DNA of 43,217 bases, taken from a virus. Of this stretch, positions 24,719 through 43,217 are shown one piece after another (the first letter of the stretch is position 1; each line of letters begins with the position of its first letter). The stretch lies in IMG/VR virus record IMGVR_UViG_3300028030_000002, positions 1 to 43,217 of that record. The stretch is one strand, 5' to 3'. The translations under genes and the position numbers were made by a program. Below the pieces are notes generated by a model. It ran no database searches, was not told the origin of the DNA, and saw nothing but the letters and a program-made list of their open reading frames with translations.

Positions 24719-24748
24719 TATAACTCCTTATTTTATGGGATGATTAAC

Positions 24749-24777
24749 ATTGTAACATAACTATTACAATTTGTCAA
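24749..24777 (-). promoter_or_regulatory. Sigma70-type promoter of the lysis cassette
   Basis: On the minus strand TTGACA (24777-24772), 17 bases and TACAAT (24754-24749) lie about 30 bases upstream of the holin ATG. Spacing and -35 are ideal. TTGACAAATTG is shared with the virion promoter at 21040. Confidence 0.82.
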
Positions 24778-24846
24778 TGATGTAATACCGCAGAATTACT
24801 ATGCTCAAAAATATAGTGAAAAATTTTTTAGAATTTTTTTTGCTTT

Positions 24847-25064
24847 GCTACTAAGTTATTCAACTACTCTGCGTTTAGTCTATCCAATAGTCAAAATTTC
24901 GTACGTTTGACATTAGCTGCTGAGCTATTTAACTACTCTGCGTTTAGTCTATCAAGTAGTTAAAATTTCGTACGTTTGGGACATTAACTACTAAGCTATT
25001 TAACTACTTAATGTTTACTCTGTCTAGCTATTCTATAGGCTAAAAATTTCGTGCGTTTGGGACA
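24847..25064. repeat. Three tandem ~70-bp repeats
   Basis: Units start at 24847, 24916 and 24987 (spacing 69 and 71). Common core: CTACTAAGCTATTTAACTAC, then CTCTGCGTTTAGTCTATC, then AAAATTTCGTACGTTTG and GGACATTA. The first two are closest; the third is diverged in the middle. In unit 2 TTTAACTACT (24928-24937) and AGTAGTTAAA (24955-24964) form a perfect 10-bp stem with a 17-base loop. Confidence 0.9.
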
Positions 25065-25109
25065 GTCCTTCCATACGCATACTAGGTATCTGAAAAGCTA
25101 CCCTTGACC

Positions 25110-25157
25110 CTCTCGACAATTAGACAGCTAGAAAACTCTCGACAATTAGACAGCTAG
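25110..25157. repeat. Pair of identical 22-bp direct repeats
   Basis: CTCTCGACAATTAGACAGCT plus AG occurs at 25110-25131 and again at 25136-25157, with four bases between. Two helical turns and a half (26-bp period) separate them. Protein-binding sites are a reasonable guess. Confidence 0.9.
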
Positions 25158-25270
25158 CTATAACCAATGCCGCCACTATTCAACATCAGCTAACTATAAT
25201 CAACGCCTAGCAGCTACATTGGCAGCCGTCTTGTTAGCTAATCCATTCAGCTACGAAGCTACATATTAAC

Positions 25271-25440
25271 CTCAATTCTGTCAATCACAAAACTGCTTAA
25301 AATCTGCTTAACTCAATTCTGCCACGTTCGATGCACAAAACTGCTTAAAATCTGCTTAACTCAATTCTTCCACTCATAAGTTAGCTTAAAATCTGCTTAG
25401 TTCAATTTCATTACTTTTAACGCATAAAATAGCTTAAATA
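25271..25440. repeat. Four degenerate 41-48-bp repeats with CTGCTTAA
   Basis: Units begin at 25271, 25312, 25360 and 25401. Each opens with (C/T)TCAATT and ends with GCTTAAAATCTGCTTAA or a decayed form. The first two share AACTGCTTAAAATCTGCTTA exactly; units 3 and 4 are progressively diverged. The doubled GCTTAA suggests binding sites of a dimeric protein. Confidence 0.85.
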
Positions 25441-25513
25441 TAGATAAAACTTGCCTCTCTAGCATAAAATTTGTTCTTTGTCAATGTTTCAAAAAGTAAC
25501 ATTTTGCTTATAT

Positions 25514-25567
25514 GGCACGAACGGCACGTGGTCAATAGTAAGGGTAGCCTAGACTACTAAAACGCCT
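25514..25567 (+). promoter_or_regulatory. GGCACGAACGGCAC leader element, copy 1
   Basis: GGCACGAACGGCAC (25514-25527) recurs exactly at 30463-30476. Both copies continue with TC-ATAGTAA at the same distance and end with ACGCCT 48 and 47 bases from the start. The element lies upstream of the promoter of the gene at 25690 on the same strand. GCCT(25564-)…AGGC hairpins are possible here. Whether it acts as DNA or RNA is not known. Confidence 0.6.
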
Positions 25568-25632
25568 CAGAGGCTATTTAAACTGTGTTTTACAGCGGTA
25601 TTACTGATTTTGTACTTTTAGCTACCTAATAC

Positions 25633-25661
25633 TTGACTTGTAGAGCTAGATAAGCTATACT
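25633..25661 (+). promoter_or_regulatory. Sigma70-type early promoter
   Basis: TTGACT (25633-25638), 17 bases, TATACT (25656-25661), then AAGGAGCTATAAAATG at the gene at 25690. Start of transcription near 25668. This is the first promoter of the rightward early region. Confidence 0.85.
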
Positions 25662-25689
25662 TACACCATCAAAATTAAGGAGCTATAAA

Positions 25690-25926
25690 ATGCTATACAT
25701 ATTAGAGACGAAAGACAACCACACAATTAACGACTGCGAAAAGGTAGCTATGCAAGAGCTTGATAACTTGGATGAGCCGTTTATTTTTTATGCGGTGCAA
25801 GTTGAAAGTGAAGTAATAGATAAACTTGTCAGTTATAAAGATGAAATAGAGCAGTTAAACAACTCAATAGCTTATCCATATCCAAAGGTAGTGATTGAAG
25901 CGTGTAAGCTACGACTAAAACGCTAA
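25690..25926 (+). CDS. First early protein, unknown
   Basis: A 78-residue acidic protein with AAGGAG before the ATG and a near-ideal promoter 29 bases upstream, so it should be made at once after infection. Helices with charged heptad-like spacing (IDKLVSYKDEIEQL) are visible. It is the only gene in the 2-kb repeat and RNA region. Early small proteins of phages often target host factors; nothing in the sequence shows which. Confidence 0.75.
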   Translation: MLYILETKDNHTINDCEKVAMQELDNLDEPFIFYAVQVESEVIDKLVSYKDEIEQLNNSIAYPYPKVVIEACKLRLKR

Positions 25927-25994
25927 ATTTGGAGTATAATAGCCTAATTAACAACTGCAAAGCTCAATCCCTAGCGACTAAATAGAAAGGACGT

Positions 25995-26059
25995 GAGGGC
26001 AATAAAATCTTCAGTGACATATTTTATCACGTGACAAATAAAAATGTCTTCTTGCCCTC
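25995..26059 (+). ncRNA. Stem-loop I
   Basis: GAGGGCAA (25995-26002) pairs with TTGCCCTC (26052-26059). Inside, TGACAT and ATGTC can extend the structure and the palindrome TCACGTGA lies near the tip. No ORF crosses it. Confidence 0.6.
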
Positions 26060-26196
26060 TCAAAAGCTTAAATTTCGATATACTAGAAGCTAAAATTATT
26101 TGCCTCGTAATATCGGTCATTTTGAAGATTTAATCTGCTTAAGCTACAGCTAAGATTTAGTGACAAAATTGTAGTATTTACAATCCAGCAGTTTCC

Positions 26197-26330
26197 GCCG
26201 ACATTTTTAGGGGGTCGCCCTAGAATTTAAAACAACTAGCTAAATTGACTTACAGCTACCTAGTCTAGGCTACCTAGAGCTAAATTTCTGAGTTGTTTTA
26301 AATTCCAGAAGAAACTTCAAAAAAGTCGGC
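26197..26330 (+). ncRNA. Nested long inverted repeat (stem-loop II)
   Basis: Outer stem GCCGAC (26197-26202) with GTCGGC (26325-26330), followed by TTTTT/AAAAA pairing. Inner stem is a perfect 15-bp match: GAATTTAAAACAACT (26223-26237) with AGTTGTTTTAAATTC (26291-26305). A mini-hairpin AGGG/CCCT at 26209-26221 sits on the left side, and CCTAG/CTAGG near the tip. Such length and nesting are far beyond chance. Confidence 0.75.
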
Positions 26331-26512
26331 AGCCATCCAATATTGTAAAAACAGCATATTTTTAACGTAGTTTAGGGCTAAAAGTGACATCAATCTAGGT
26401 AAAAAGTTGGCAGGCAATATGCACGATTGTGCTTTTCGCTCCAGCTAGAATATAAGTTGGAAATAGCTCCTCAAATTTTCGCCAGTTTTTCCACAATCTA
26501 GCATTAAAATAT

Positions 26513-26553
26513 TACAATTCAGCACTGCGAAAAAGTTGCTGTGCTGAATTGTA
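26513..26553 (+). ncRNA. Stem-loop III, 13-bp perfect stem
   Basis: TACAATTCAGCAC (26513-26525) pairs with GTGCTGAATTGTA (26541-26553) around a 15-base loop. It is separated by a single base from the next hairpin. Confidence 0.75.
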
Positions 26554-26554
26554 T

Positions 26555-26602
26555 AAAAGTTGGTCAAAATAAAATTCACAGAAATAAATCTGACCAACTT
26601 TT
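26555..26602 (+). terminator. Terminator-like stem-loop IV
   Basis: AAAAGTTGGTCA (26555-26566) pairs with TGACCAACTTTT (26591-26602), then T. The right arm ends in a short T run, so it may end the leftward part of the early transcript, in either direction. The loop is 24 bases. The first TTAAGCGGTA promoter follows 80 bases on. Confidence 0.6.
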
Positions 26603-26683
26603 TATCAATCTAGTGAATAAGTTAGCCACCTAAAACTTTAAGAAAATCAAAAGCAGAACCAAAGCAGTAGTTAAGATTAGATT

Positions 26684-26703
26684 AAGCGGTACTACGTTAT
26701 ACT
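26684..26703 (+). promoter_or_regulatory. Phage-type promoter, AAGCGGTA box, copy 1
   Basis: AAGCGGTA (26684-26691), six bases, TATACT (26698-26703); preceded by TT. The same box with the same six-base spacing recurs at 27138 and 34521. The usual -35 is lacking. The gene at 26732 starts 28 bases on. Confidence 0.7.
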
Positions 26704-26731
26704 ACCTCTATCAAAACAAAGGAGACACACA

Positions 26732-27139
26732 ATGAAAGACATAGCTACAGCAGATAAGCAATTACAAGAACTACACGATAGATTTTCTCGTGAATATGAG
26801 GATGCTAAATGGGCGAGAGCTATAGCTTTAACTTTAGCTAAACAAGATTTTGAAAACGAAGAAAGAAATTTCAGCGCCTATCTCAAAAACTATACAGATA
26901 TTAACGTATCTGCCGCTCTTAGAGATATTAGAGCCCTAGATATTTATGAGGAGTACGCCGCTATAGCTCACACACAAGATGATAAGGAGATATTAAGAAA
27001 AACATCTGTAAGTTACTTTTATGTTTTGCCTAGACATTTCCCATACCAAACTTTTATGTACTTAATTAGACAAGCTAAAACTCAAGTAGAGTTTACTAAG
27101 CTAGTGAATGAAGAAAAACAGAAGTTAAGGATACGTTAA
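26732..27139 (+). CDS. Early protein of unknown function
   Basis: A 135-residue helical, highly charged protein with AAAGGAG before the ATG. No family recognised. It has its own AAGCGGTA-type promoter, and the next such promoter overlaps its stop, so it can be expressed apart from the genes that follow. Confidence 0.75.
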   Translation: MKDIATADKQLQELHDRFSREYEDAKWARAIALTLAKQDFENEERNFSAYLKNYTDINVSAALRDIRALDIYEEYAAIAHTQDDKEILRKTSVSYFYVLPRHFPYQTFMYLIRQAKTQVEFTKLVNEEKQKLRIR

Positions 27140-27157
27140 GCGGTAACACGTTATACT
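27138..27157 (+). promoter_or_regulatory. Phage-type promoter, AAGCGGTA box, copy 2
   Basis: AAGCGGTA (27138-27145), six bases, TATACT (27152-27157). With flanks it matches copy 1 over TTAAGCGGTA and CGTTATACTACCT. It drives the duplicated genes at 27186 and 27447. Confidence 0.75.
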
Positions 27158-27185
27158 ACCTATACAAAACAAACAAGGAGAGATA

Positions 27186-27398
27186 ATGAAAGATGAAGCA
27201 ACTGAAATTATGGAAGACATAGCTGATACATTTTATGCTGGTCAGGCTACAGCAGGAGTGCAAAAGCTTAAATTAGCTGGACTAAATGCAAGCGACTTCT
27301 TAGCTTACATAGAAGATTTAGAAGCAGAGACAAATACAGAAAACACGGTTTTTAATCGTAGATTTTTTATTAGATTAGCTGGAGATATGAGGAGCTAA
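27186..27398 (+). CDS. Small early protein, paralogue 1
   Basis: A 70-residue acidic protein, with most of its sequence matching the next gene: MEDIADTFYAGQ, AGVQKLKLAGL, DFLAYIEDLEAETNTEN and NRRFFIRLA. AAGGAG upstream. Helical; no known family. Confidence 0.78.
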   Translation: MKDEATEIMEDIADTFYAGQATAGVQKLKLAGLNASDFLAYIEDLEAETNTENTVFNRRFFIRLAGDMRS

Positions 27399-27446
27399 GT
27401 AATGGAAGTAGCAATACCTATACAAAACAACAAACAAGGAGAAGTA

Positions 27447-27647
27447 ATGAATGAAATTATGGAAGACATAGCTGATACATTTTATAATGGTCAGTTTACA
27501 GCGGGAGTGCAAGAGCTGAAATTAGCTGGACTAGGTGCAAGAGACTTCTTAAGTTACATAGAAGATTTAGAAGTAGAGACAAACACAGAAAACACGTTTT
27601 TCAATCGAAGATTTTTTATTGAGTTAGCTGAAGATATGAGGAGCTAA
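27447..27647 (+). CDS. Small early protein, paralogue 2
   Basis: The open frame runs upstream to 27402, but the start MNEIMEDIADTFYNG at 27447 has AAGGAG before it and matches the copied leader of paralogue 1, so I choose it (66 residues). It matches paralogue 1 closely over almost its whole length. Two copies kept under constant reading frame suggests a useful dose or separate roles. Confidence 0.78.
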   Translation: MNEIMEDIADTFYNGQFTAGVQELKLAGLGARDFLSYIEDLEVETNTENTFFNRRFFIELAEDMRS

Positions 27648-27650
27648 GTA

Positions 27651-27896
27651 ATGGAAGTTGTAATACTTATACTATTAATGATAATAACATTTGCGGTGCT
27701 GGGTTCAGCTAACATATTTAGGATTGTAGCTTTTCTATTGAAAACAACAGTCAAGCTTAGTATCTTAGCTGTAGTTGTAGTAGGAGTATATTTAATTCAT
27801 ACAACTCATCCAGATGCAGATGTAGCAATTATTGGAGTTGCATTTATTTTATTCTTTGTTTATATGTTAGACAAAGATACAGAGCAAGTTAAGTAA
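27651..27896 (+). CDS. Small membrane protein
   Basis: An 81-residue very hydrophobic protein with three likely membrane helices (about 3-22, 30-50, 57-73) and a charged C-terminus. It is in the early region, away from the lysis cassette, so host envelope modification or superinfection exclusion is more likely than lysis. RBS GGAG before the ATG. Confidence 0.7.
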   Translation: MEVVILILLMIITFAVLGSANIFRIVAFLLKTTVKLSILAVVVVGVYLIHTTHPDADVAIIGVAFILFFVYMLDKDTEQVK

Positions 27897-30624: not shown

Positions 30625-30843
30625 ATGCCACTAACAGAATTAAACAATATTTTTACAGAAGAACATAATGCTACCTATTATGATGATTTGCTAGCTAACC
30701 ATAAGCTAATTATCAGAACAGTTCGCAACACTAACCAAAAGACAGTAGCTAAAGCTATAAATATGAGCGAACCTAAATTCTCAGCTATTTATAAGTTACT
30801 TTTAGCTTATGCAGATAAAGAGGTGGCTAAAGATGACAATTAG
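30625..30843 (+). CDS. Small HTH DNA-binding protein
   Basis: The frame is open further upstream but ATG 30625, with AAAAGGA before it, is the good start (72 residues). The segment TNQKTVAKAINMSEPKFSA has a helix-turn-helix look, similar to CII-like phage regulators. It is upstream of and overlaps the PrimPol gene. It may regulate replication genes or help load the primase at the origin. Confidence 0.65.
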   Translation: MPLTELNNIFTEEHNATYYDDLLANHKLIIRTVRNTNQKTVAKAINMSEPKFSAIYKLLLAYADKEVAKDDN

Positions 30844-33220
30844 CGAGGGATATGAAAGTAAAGGGATAAAACTATCACCTGCTGGAATTTGGGAAAGAGA
30901 CGCTGAAACTGGTAAAAAGCATCCAATAGTAGCTTATAGAAAAGATGGACTAGAATTTGCTAATTATCCAAAGGACAACATAGCTAAATGTAGAATAGAA
31001 GATATAATAGCTCCTGAGGGTTACAGAGTTATTGTTATAGATGCAGACAGCCAAGAGGGTAAAGAAAAGGTACTTAAGCTATTTCCACAAGCTGTAGATA
31101 CATTTAGTACACGTACAAGTAGCGATGCTAAACGACACTTTTTCTTCTATGTTCCTAAAGATAAGTTTGATGAACTGAGAGCTATTGGTATTTTTGTAGA
31201 GGTAGATTTATTATCTTATGGGATATTATTTGAGGCTCACTTCTTTAGAGAAGACGACTATGAAATGCCAGACTTTTCAAAAGACATACTTACACTAGAT
31301 GAAGCAGGACAAGAGCTATTATTAGAAAGCCTAGACACAAAGTCAGTTAGCTTCAAAAGTAATGGCGAACACACTAGCTTTGTTAATAAAGAAATGGCTT
31401 TTTTAGTTGAGAATTATGTAGCTGGTGAACTAGATATTATGAGCGACGACCCAGTAGCTAGATTAAACAGAAACAAGCTATTTAAACAATTAACTCCTAA
31501 ATCTCAAAAGAAGAAAGGACAGAGAAAGTTTGAAGCTCCTAAACTTAGCCACGACAGTTTAAACACAATGGCTTTACTTGTAGCTAAGAACTCTAAGATA
31601 CCTAATGAGGTAGCTATACAGTTTATAGAAAAGCTTTTAGTAGAATTATATGGAGTAGATTTAAACTCTAAGGAAACACATAACCATTGGTATAATAGTA
31701 TCTTACCTACGTTACCATTCTTTGAGCGTATTTTTAATTCTTTAGAAGATTTTAGAGAGTTCGATGAGGTATTAGAGCAAAACACTACAGATAACACGAA
31801 AGACGCTAACTTTAAATGGGCTCTGTTTACGACAGCTAAAAATGGAACGACTAAGTATTTTCAAATTAACAAGTTTACATATAGGTTACGTAGTATAAAC
31901 GGCTCTGTGTTCTTTGACGAGTCTTACATACGTAAACTATATCCTAACTTAACTAAAGATGACTTAGAAGACATACCTCATCTAGCTCTAATGACAGACC
32001 CATACAAAGAAGTAGTAGAATTTGATGAAGATAACGATATATATCTGTTAAATACAATGCACCCCAGTAGGTATAAAGCTAATGCTATAGCTAGAAAAGA
32101 TAAGCCAGATAATGTACTAACTAAAATGATTAATAAGTTCTTTGATAATCAACTACACGAAGAATTTTATTACCATTGGTTAGCTCATCTAGTTTATGGT
32201 GACAAGCCAGTTAATGTAGTAGTTTGGTTTTGTAGTGATGCTAATGCTAAAGCTGGAACTGGTAAGACCTTACTGTCCGCGGCTTTGCCTGCTCAATTAA
32301 TGGGAGATGAACAAGCTACTACAGTTGATAGCTCTGTAGCTGATGCAGGATGGGGTCAGATGTATGATACAAGATTACTTAGCTACAATGACCTTAACAA
32401 AATGAAAGATAGCGAATGGGCTAGAATGTACGCTAAGATTAAAGATGAAGCTAGTAACTCTACATCTAAGATTAGAAATAATAAAGGTGGAGACGTAGTT
32501 AAATCTAGTGTTGGTATCTGCCAGAGTGGTAGTTCTAACTTTATTCCGAGTGTGGATGCTTCTGACAGACGTTTCTTTATTGTTAGCCCTAAGCTACAGC
32601 TAGACGAAAACGGTGCAGATGAACTACATAGAATATTTGAGGCTGAACGTAATAAAGAACACGAAGAAGTGCAAGAAATAGCTGATTATCTAGCTTACTT
32701 ATATAAAAATGAAGCAGATACGTATAAAGAAGAGCTATTTACAAGAGCTATAAAAACAGAAGAGAAAATCTCAGCTACTCAGATGGGAGCGTACACACAT
32801 ACTATTATTAGTAGAATTAGTTACGCACCTAAAGAGTTATTTGACATATTTAAAGAGCCAACAAGCTACTCTGACACGTGGCAAGACTGGCAAATTATTG
32901 AGTTTATTAAAGTACAGTCTATTAATGGTAAAGTTTATTTACCTATTAAGTTTTTAAATATGCTTATTAATCGTGTAAAAGGTATAGATGAAGAAAGAAG
33001 TCCAGCATCTATTATGAGCATACTGGAAATGAAGAAAACTAGAATACGAGAAGATAATGCTAGATTTTTACAGCCACATAAACTTAAAAACTTCCCTAGT
33101 GAAGTAGCTACCTATAAATTATATGGTGTAGAAACAGACATTAATGAGGAAGCTTACAAGAATTTTATGCCTGAGAAGCTCTCACCTGAGGGAATACATA
33201 GATTAGTAGGAGGATTATAA
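30833..33220 (+). CDS. PrimPol-SF3 helicase fusion
   Basis: Start at ATG 30833, overlapping the HTH gene and with GAGGTGG upstream (795 residues). N-terminal archaeo-eukaryotic primase-polymerase: IDAD with D70 and D72, the S/RH motif at SDAKRHFFFY (H102), and third acid D125 in FVEVDLLSYG. C-terminal D5/SF3-type helicase: Walker A AKAGTGKTLL (K478), then the segment RLLSYNDLNKM with the Walker B equivalent, and the ending SNFIPSVDASDRRFFIVSP typical of this class (arginine finger region). It should prime and unwind DNA at replication forks. Confidence 0.9.
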   Translation: MTISEGYESKGIKLSPAGIWERDAETGKKHPIVAYRKDGLEFANYPKDNIAKCRIEDIIAPEGYRVIVIDADSQEGKEKVLKLFPQAVDTFSTRTSSDAKRHFFFYVPKDKFDELRAIGIFVEVDLLSYGILFEAHFFREDDYEMPDFSKDILTLDEAGQELLLESLDTKSVSFKSNGEHTSFVNKEMAFLVENYVAGELDIMSDDPVARLNRNKLFKQLTPKSQKKKGQRKFEAPKLSHDSLNTMALLVAKNSKIPNEVAIQFIEKLLVELYGVDLNSKETHNHWYNSILPTLPFFERIFNSLEDFREFDEVLEQNTTDNTKDANFKWALFTTAKNGTTKYFQINKFTYRLRSINGSVFFDESYIRKLYPNLTKDDLEDIPHLALMTDPYKEVVEFDEDNDIYLLNTMHPSRYKANAIARKDKPDNVLTKMINKFFDNQLHEEFYYHWLAHLVYGDKPVNVVVWFCSDANAKAGTGKTLLSAALPAQLMGDEQATTVDSSVADAGWGQMYDTRLLSYNDLNKMKDSEWARMYAKIKDEASNSTSKIRNNKGGDVVKSSVGICQSGSSNFIPSVDASDRRFFIVSPKLQLDENGADELHRIFEAERNKEHEEVQEIADYLAYLYKNEADTYKEELFTRAIKTEEKISATQMGAYTHTIISRISYAPKELFDIFKEPTSYSDTWQDWQIIEFIKVQSINGKVYLPIKFLNMLINRVKGIDEERSPASIMSILEMKKTRIREDNARFLQPHKLKNFPSEVATYKLYGVETDINEEAYKNFMPEKLSPEGIHRLVGGL

Positions 33221-42627: not shown

Positions 42628-43124
42628 TGATTGATATTAACTCATTTTGCGATATTTATGAAGTTTCACATAATCTAGTTTATGTAACTAAGGGACAGAA
42701 ACCTAGCATAGCTAAATTTTTTCATAAAGTCAGCGAAAGAGAGATGTACATAGATGATAAAGCTATAGCTAGACGTAAAAATTTTGGGTTAAAAGTGATA
42801 AATATTTCACGTGATAACTACTATAAGCTAACTGAAGAACATACAGATACGCAAATAGCTAAAATTCTATCTCATTATTCTGGCAGTAGTGTAGCTAGCT
42901 GGAGAATGTTTTTGCGAATTGCCCTATTTAGTTTTAGCTACCAAGAACACTCTGTTTTACAGTATGAAATAACAGATAAAATGTGGCAATTTTTTAGGTA
43001 CTCTACGTTTTTAATTAGAGGGTTAGAGAGACAGCAAGCTCACAAAGAAAGAAGACTTAAATATCTGCATCCTAATAGAGATAACTATGAAGCTATCTAT
43101 AAAGAGAGAGGATGCTCCAGATAA
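42627..43124 (+). CDS. Early-region protein with possible HTH, unknown
   Basis: A 165-residue basic protein. Residues about 90-115 (HTDTQIAKILSHYSGSSVAS) look like a helix-turn-helix, suggesting DNA binding. It is the last complete plus-strand gene before the join; its final codons are repeated at 2-34. Confidence 0.6.
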   Translation: MIDINSFCDIYEVSHNLVYVTKGQKPSIAKFFHKVSEREMYIDDKAIARRKNFGLKVINISRDNYYKLTEEHTDTQIAKILSHYSGSSVASWRMFLRIALFSFSYQEHSVLQYEITDKMWQFFRYSTFLIRGLERQQAHKERRLKYLHPNRDNYEAIYKERGCSR

Positions 43125-43217
43125 TAAACCGCCAGTAAGAGGGATTGCGTAAAGCTCATCTTAACCCGACCGTGAAGACAGCTGAGGTAAGGAGGTCCTG
43201 TATTAATTATTTTTTTT
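43091..43217. repeat. Terminal overlap, right copy
   Basis: Identical to bases 1-127. In the circular map 43091 is base 1. Confidence 0.95.

Follow-up and report, generated by a model that had tools for sequence, protein, structure and literature searches.

Gene-free regions of the window

The window, meaning the whole stretch of DNA analysed here, is a viral record of 43,217 bases. Two gene-free regions, gap A and gap B, lie on either side of a short leader ORF, and the early operon starts at the downstream edge of gap B. The features of this locus and the candidate initiator gene are as follows, with repeat copies taken from the motif count:

24719–25689, unstranded: gap A, the first gene-free region, with tandem repeats
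25690–25926, plus strand: leader ORF, 78 aa, no known family
25927–26731, unstranded: gap B, conserved gene-free region between ORF ends, at the same position in 21 genomes; candidate origin region
25995–26059, unstranded: hairpin just past the leader gene, 8 bp, GAGGGCAA ... TTGCCCTC; no T run
26223–26305, unstranded: core stem-loop candidate, 15-bp perfect arms GAATTTAAAACAACT / AGTTGTTTTAAATTC, 53-nt spacer
26321–26328, plus strand: repeat copy AAAAGTCG
26391–26398, plus strand: CAATCTAG, first of three copies (others 26494–26501 and 26606–26613; none elsewhere in the genome)
26402–26409, plus strand: repeat copy AAAAGTTG(GC)
26513–26553, unstranded: 13-bp perfect hairpin, loop of 15, extending with one mismatch; the loop holds AAAAAGTTG
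26531–26538, plus strand: repeat copy AAAAGTTG(CT)
26555–26602, unstranded: inverted pair of the repeated motif, 12 bp, AAAAGTTGGTCA ... TGACCAACTTTT, 24-nt AT-rich spacer
26555–26562, plus strand: repeat copy AAAAGTTG(GTC)
26595–26602, minus strand: repeat copy AAAAGTTG(GTC), inverted
26686–26703, plus strand: operator-like GCGGTACTAC, then a -10-like TATACT, at the start of the early operon
30809–33220, plus strand: candidate initiator, an 803-aa primase-helicase-like protein with Walker A AGTGKT; N-terminal part Prim-Pol-like, below the cut-off

Bases 1–127 are identical to 43091–43217, and this 127-bp terminal repeat makes a complete genome probable. The closest phages are Pseudoalteromonas phage PH1, Vibrio phage VPMS1, Edwardsiella phage KF-1, Dickeya phage Amaethon and two spring-water podoviruses; the terminase of the window is ~44–50% identical to theirs over the matched part and its family A DNA polymerase 32–39% identical. 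Judged by these protein comparisons, the window is a distant KF-1-like podovirus.

Gap B fills the exact interval between an upstream ORF that ends at 25926 and a downstream one that starts at 26732, and tRNA and Rfam scans of it gave no matches, in agreement with an earlier note on this DNA that had described 25927–26731 as gene-free. Gap A of the window contains 69-bp tandem repeats and an 84-bp direct repeat at 24848–25008 and 25266–25438. It also holds TACCCTTGACCCT (25099–25111, plus strand), which is conserved exactly or closely in gap A of the nearest relatives (L005 at 2093, L006 at 7858), with a similar sequence in L008 at 7103; its distance past the terminase is alike among the nearest relatives, and it is perhaps a packaging or replication site. 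Palindromes of AATAAATTTATT, in inverted pairs just past the terminase, occur in gap A of KF-1, PH1, MW202665 and Amaethon.

The genome has four perfect copies of GCGGTANYAC and no more (24782–24791 on the minus strand; 25595–25604, 26686–26695 and 27140–27149 on the plus strand), each upstream of an early gene. The motif is also found in L007 and L008 and is a candidate operator or activator site. The operator-like and -10-like unit of 26686–26703 is repeated at 27115–27193 with 80% identity, and a 249-bp tandem duplication at 27203–27672 gives two similar small early proteins (27186–27398 and 27402–27647; 81% identical), of which L005 3357–3617 may encode a relative.

Inverted repeats and repeated motifs in gap B

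Across the 43-kb window there are only five perfect stems of at least 12 bp (loop up to 80), and three of them, of 15, 13 and 12 bp, are the perfect inverted repeats of that length inside gap B. The cluster of strong stems that the earlier note had pointed out is thus real, with three members rather than the five or more perfect stems of 12–15 bp that it had counted. For the best inverted repeat in gap B the score is 15; shuffled sequences average 8.5, and 0 of 25 and 0 of 100 of them attained 15. With its 15-bp stem and 53-nt loop, the structure at 26223–26305 has the size of a pRN1-type element (a single large stem of ~13–26 bp with a loop of ~50–90 nt). The AT fraction of its spacer, 0.60, does not exceed that of the genome, 0.65, and its 15-bp arms are not themselves tandem repeats.

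The hairpin at 26513–26553 has a DNA fold z of -7.3. An alternative 9-bp pairing joins 26530–26538 with 26595–26603, that is, the loop sequence AAAAAGTTG with the 3' arm of the hairpin that follows, and is accounted for by both sites being copies of one motif, AAAAAGTTG(G), in opposite orientation; the second pairing of a loop with a downstream site that the earlier note had described is real. As RNA, the whole of gap B folds with z = -4.9 on the plus strand and -7.2 on the minus strand (20 shuffles each), the local signal being concentrated at 26450–26600 and, on the minus strand, at 26000–26150. One hairpin resembles the leader ORF over 31 nt, but a whole-window blastn did not report the match, which was treated as chance.

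Five of the six genome copies of AAAAGT[TC]G lie within 282 bp of gap B (26321–26602), a count that is suggestive only because the motif was chosen after inspection. AAAAGTTG is the top local 8-mer outside coding tandem repeats, and an unbiased 9-mer repeat test of gap B in the window was not significant (3 of 40 shuffles). The hairpin at 25995–26059 is a possible terminator or border: KF-1 and Amaethon have a similar hairpin past the stop of the leader gene, where L052, L089, L095 and L098 have classical terminators. A promoter and terminator scan of gap B returned no strong promoter and no consensus terminator pair bounding a transcript. The window has a sharp GC skew minimum, which tracks gene direction.

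Position and layout of gap B in related phages

Terminase-based searches yielded 80 viral contigs and, in GTDB genomes, no match. All 21 tabulated genomes have two gene-free gaps past the terminase in the order gap A, one to three small genes, gap B, a proportion that is not an unbiased frequency since these genomes were picked for showing the layout; the table was made with a crude gene caller, and some boundaries were set by hand from its output. The inverted repeat score of gap B is at least 13 in 15 of the 21 genomes, as opposed to 0 of 21 length-matched terminase coding stretches, and that of gap A is at least 13 in 9 of 21. In those 15 gap Bs the repeat is much stronger than shuffled sequence gives. 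No significant inverted repeat was detected in gap B of L067, L073, L089 and L093.

Most KF-1-like relatives keep a stem of 13–26 bp and a spacer of 51–90 nt with unrelated arm sequences. Stem and spacer are 15 bp/53 nt in the window, 13/51 in L005, 18/55 in KF-1, 26/52 in VPMS1 and 14/77 in Amaethon; in further relatives they are 16/89 (L030), 16/87 (L033), 17/85 (L052), 17/68 (L082) and 21/77 (L095). The arms in most relatives consist of pairs of 8–9 bp direct repeats, mirrored across the spacer and almost limited to gap B. All 11 exact copies of AAATCCAA in 12 kb of L052 lie in the gap, six forward and then five reverse. The same holds for the L098 repeat, all seven of whose copies in 21.6 kb fall in the gap (three forward, four reverse), and for the six exact copies of CATTCTAGT in L005, while AATTATGG of L033 has four of its five locus copies there, two in each orientation. 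Outside gap B these loci carry scattered single repeat copies only. Since stem sequences recur in the relatives as unpaired direct repeats, the repeats are better read as DNA sites for a protein than as RNA stems only.

The spacer in most relatives has an AT fraction of 0.71–0.85, richer than the locus. Third-position GC skew of the genes on either side of the gaps gave no replication signal in the 21 genomes (pooled -0.004 vs 0.009), and within the Edwardsiella phages KF-1, IW-1 and ETP-1 a search for covariation found the arms invariant. A run of three to five G lies inside or near the right arm, at the right end of the spacer, in L030, L033, L058, L098 and L103 (BIP-1), and is possibly a directional element. 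In Amaethon (L022), gap B has a second, duplicated long hairpin (TGATTTATAAAGATATT...) flanking the mirrored-repeat stem-loop.

Closer relatives of the window were sought by several routes. The flanking small ORFs found none, the 222-aa protein found L005 as sole relative, and the initiator found L099, a contig that begins beyond gap B; among the contigs reached in these ways there was no alignable gap B. A blastn search of 25927–26731 against phages gave no match, and the exact arm pattern of the window was absent from viral contigs.

The candidate initiator

The gene for the candidate initiator starts 4.1 kb downstream of gap B. Its product has a weak Prim-Pol match (E 0.003, below the cut-off) and is a probable remote primase-helicase replication protein. 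The family profile matched no solved relative, and no winged helix was seen; AlphaFold2 runs with 2 and 5 sequences gave poor models, with mean pLDDT values of 33 and 47, which were left unused. Initiators of the KF-1-like phages bear DUF5906, P4-type primase C-terminus and helicase signatures, and the profile of this group matches the NrS-1 primase/helicase with E 4e-15. Two distant primase-helicase types occur among otherwise related genomes (initiator genes of L019–L024 and L026–L099): the KF-1 type and the window type, the latter common to L026, L032, L033, L040 and L099.

A replication origin and its alternatives

Several observations suggest, with moderate confidence on our part, that gap B is the origin of phage DNA replication, a stem-loop/iteron element of the pRN1 type that would act as DNA. 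The position and layout of the gap are conserved, the mirrored repeats of the relatives are nearly confined to it, and the geometry resembles that of BIP-1 and pRN1; additional support comes from the concentration of AAAAGT[TC]G in gap B and from the match of the group initiator to NrS-1. From the repeats, their statistics and their conserved position and layout, all of which are observed, we infer on positional and architectural grounds that gap B serves replication, is bound by the initiator and is where the strands open and priming takes place. Counting against such an origin are the non-tandem arms in the window, the null 9-mer test, a spacer that is not AT-richer, the null GC skew, the repeats in gap A, the four relatives lacking a significant inverted repeat, the weak initiator assignment and, unlike in pRN1, a gap that does not adjoin the initiator gene.

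The origin would belong to the stem-loop type that serves replication proteins combining an archaeo-eukaryotic-type primase with a superfamily 3 helicase. The initiator that the phage itself encodes (ORF 30809–33220) would bind the repeated sites in gap B, forming two rings on the mirror-image arms that flank a spacer of ~50 nt, and would open the duplex at the spacer, possibly aided by extrusion of the stem-loop. The exposed single strand could then serve as template for the primase of the initiator, after which the family A polymerase of the phage would take over extension. The leader-gene hairpin and the early promoter at 26686–26703 bracket gap B and might keep transcription away from it.

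The earlier note had offered three functions, namely abundant RNAs acting on the host, RNAs acting on plasmid-like copy control, or an origin. The last is the best supported, by the conserved gap position, the long inverted repeats with 51–90 nt spacers and the likeness to pRN1; the abundant RNAs are left without positive support, with neither an Rfam match nor a strong promoter or consensus terminator pair. We regard it as rather unlikely that structured non-coding RNA, of a single species or several and perhaps minus-strand, is made from gap B and acts on host or phage genes. Folding beats shuffles on both strands, most of all on the minus strand (z -7.2), and the hairpins at 26450–26600 have local z values of -6.2 (plus) and -5.5 (minus), but arms that form perfect palindromes lend equal stability to the two strands and can be explained without RNA, and stem sequences of the relatives reappear as unpaired direct repeats. 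An Rfam search at gathering and permissive thresholds gave nothing credible, the weak matches including animal miRNAs and a snoRNA. Transcription could instead be governed here at the level of DNA, with gap B holding grouped operators through which a phage regulator would switch the early operon, rather than an origin. The repeats do lie just upstream of the early promoter at 26686–26703, single copies occur near other start codons in some relatives (L005), and the separate operator-like GCGGTANYAC precedes four early genes. This is nevertheless unlikely, as long mirrored arms with spacers of 51–90 nt are unusual for operators and the same layout is seen in BIP-1 and in pRN1, where replication experimentally requires the stem-loop.

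It is improbable that the hairpins as a set are terminators or insulators that separate the leader gene from the early operon on both strands. The first hairpin does follow the leader-gene stop, exactly where four relatives have classical terminators, and a terminator role likely holds for that hairpin only: the terminator scan of gap B found none, the loop of the main stem-loop is 53 nt long and a T run is missing there, and 800 bases are needless for one terminator. Finally, strong repeats in gap A of 9 of the 21 genomes mean that the origin could lie there instead (24719–25689), with gap B as an accessory replication or partition site. Several relatives have direct-repeat arrays in gap A (15 copies in PH1, 11 in L071, and L049), and the window has its 69-bp tandem and 84-bp direct repeats. 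Yet these repeats are mostly direct and not mirrored, they adjoin the terminase genes so that a packaging site is also plausible, and it is gap B that has the stem-loop layout of pRN1 and BIP-1; we give an origin in gap A only a slim chance.

Comparison with known systems

The origins of SaPI and SCCmec (Cch2) are likewise built of short direct repeats, to which an initiator of helicase type that loads itself binds, but those origins lie downstream of the rep gene and Cch2 binds independently of inverted repeats (PMC7581432). In the V. cholerae PLE, a noncoding region has repeats that contain inverted sub-repeats and act as iterons (PMC7145576), with an initiator of the unrelated RepA_N protein family. 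Phage NrS-1 resembles the KF-1-like group in its PrimPol-helicase and has one recognition site per strand in mid-genome as a suggested origin; its recognition sequence TTTGGTTA is not the motif of the window, and the passages considered describe no stem-loop (PMC7102993).

The closest parallel is plasmid pRN1, in which a ~100-bp stem-loop (21-bp stem, 58-nt loop) is required for replication and among whose relatives the structure is conserved with low sequence conservation (PMC4234260). Gap B shares with it a large stem-loop whose structure is kept without its sequence; a hairpin that may be a terminator lies nearby, as in pRN1, and the candidate initiator would be the counterpart of the primase-SF3 replication protein of pRN1. 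It differs in that the pRN1 stem-loop lies directly 3' of the replication gene, whereas the candidate initiator of the window is 4.1 kb downstream in another gene order.

The authors of the pRN1 study propose a similar stem-loop in phage BIP-1 (PMC4234260). In Bordetella phage BIP-1 we computed a 22-bp stem with a 60-nt loop at 26607–26710, possibly the stem-loop drawn in Fig. 6 of that study; each arm is made of two 9-bp repeats. BIP-1/BPP-1 (Rauchvirus) is thus like the window in having such a stem-loop in a gene-free gap, and its initiator is related to that of pRN1, but its arms are two 9-bp direct repeats, which the 15-bp arms of the window are not. BIP-1 is unrelated to the group of the window and nonetheless has the same geometry as the KF-1-like phages.

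We tentatively propose, at somewhat less than even confidence, a widespread class of phage origins in which two mirrored sets of 8–9 bp direct repeats surround a spacer of 50–90 nt, each set serving as an initiator site and both together forming the 'stem-loop' of pRN1. Lineages would have rewritten the repeats and kept the geometry, with two types of primase-helicase, and the window would be a member with decayed arm repeats. If true, this would provide predicted origins for the KF-1-like phages, a group for which a literature search found no origin description. The pRN1 stem-loop is known to be required, and whether an initiator reads structure or repeats in such an element is a question that these phages make directly testable, since they show the same geometry with visible arm repeats and independently changed sequences.
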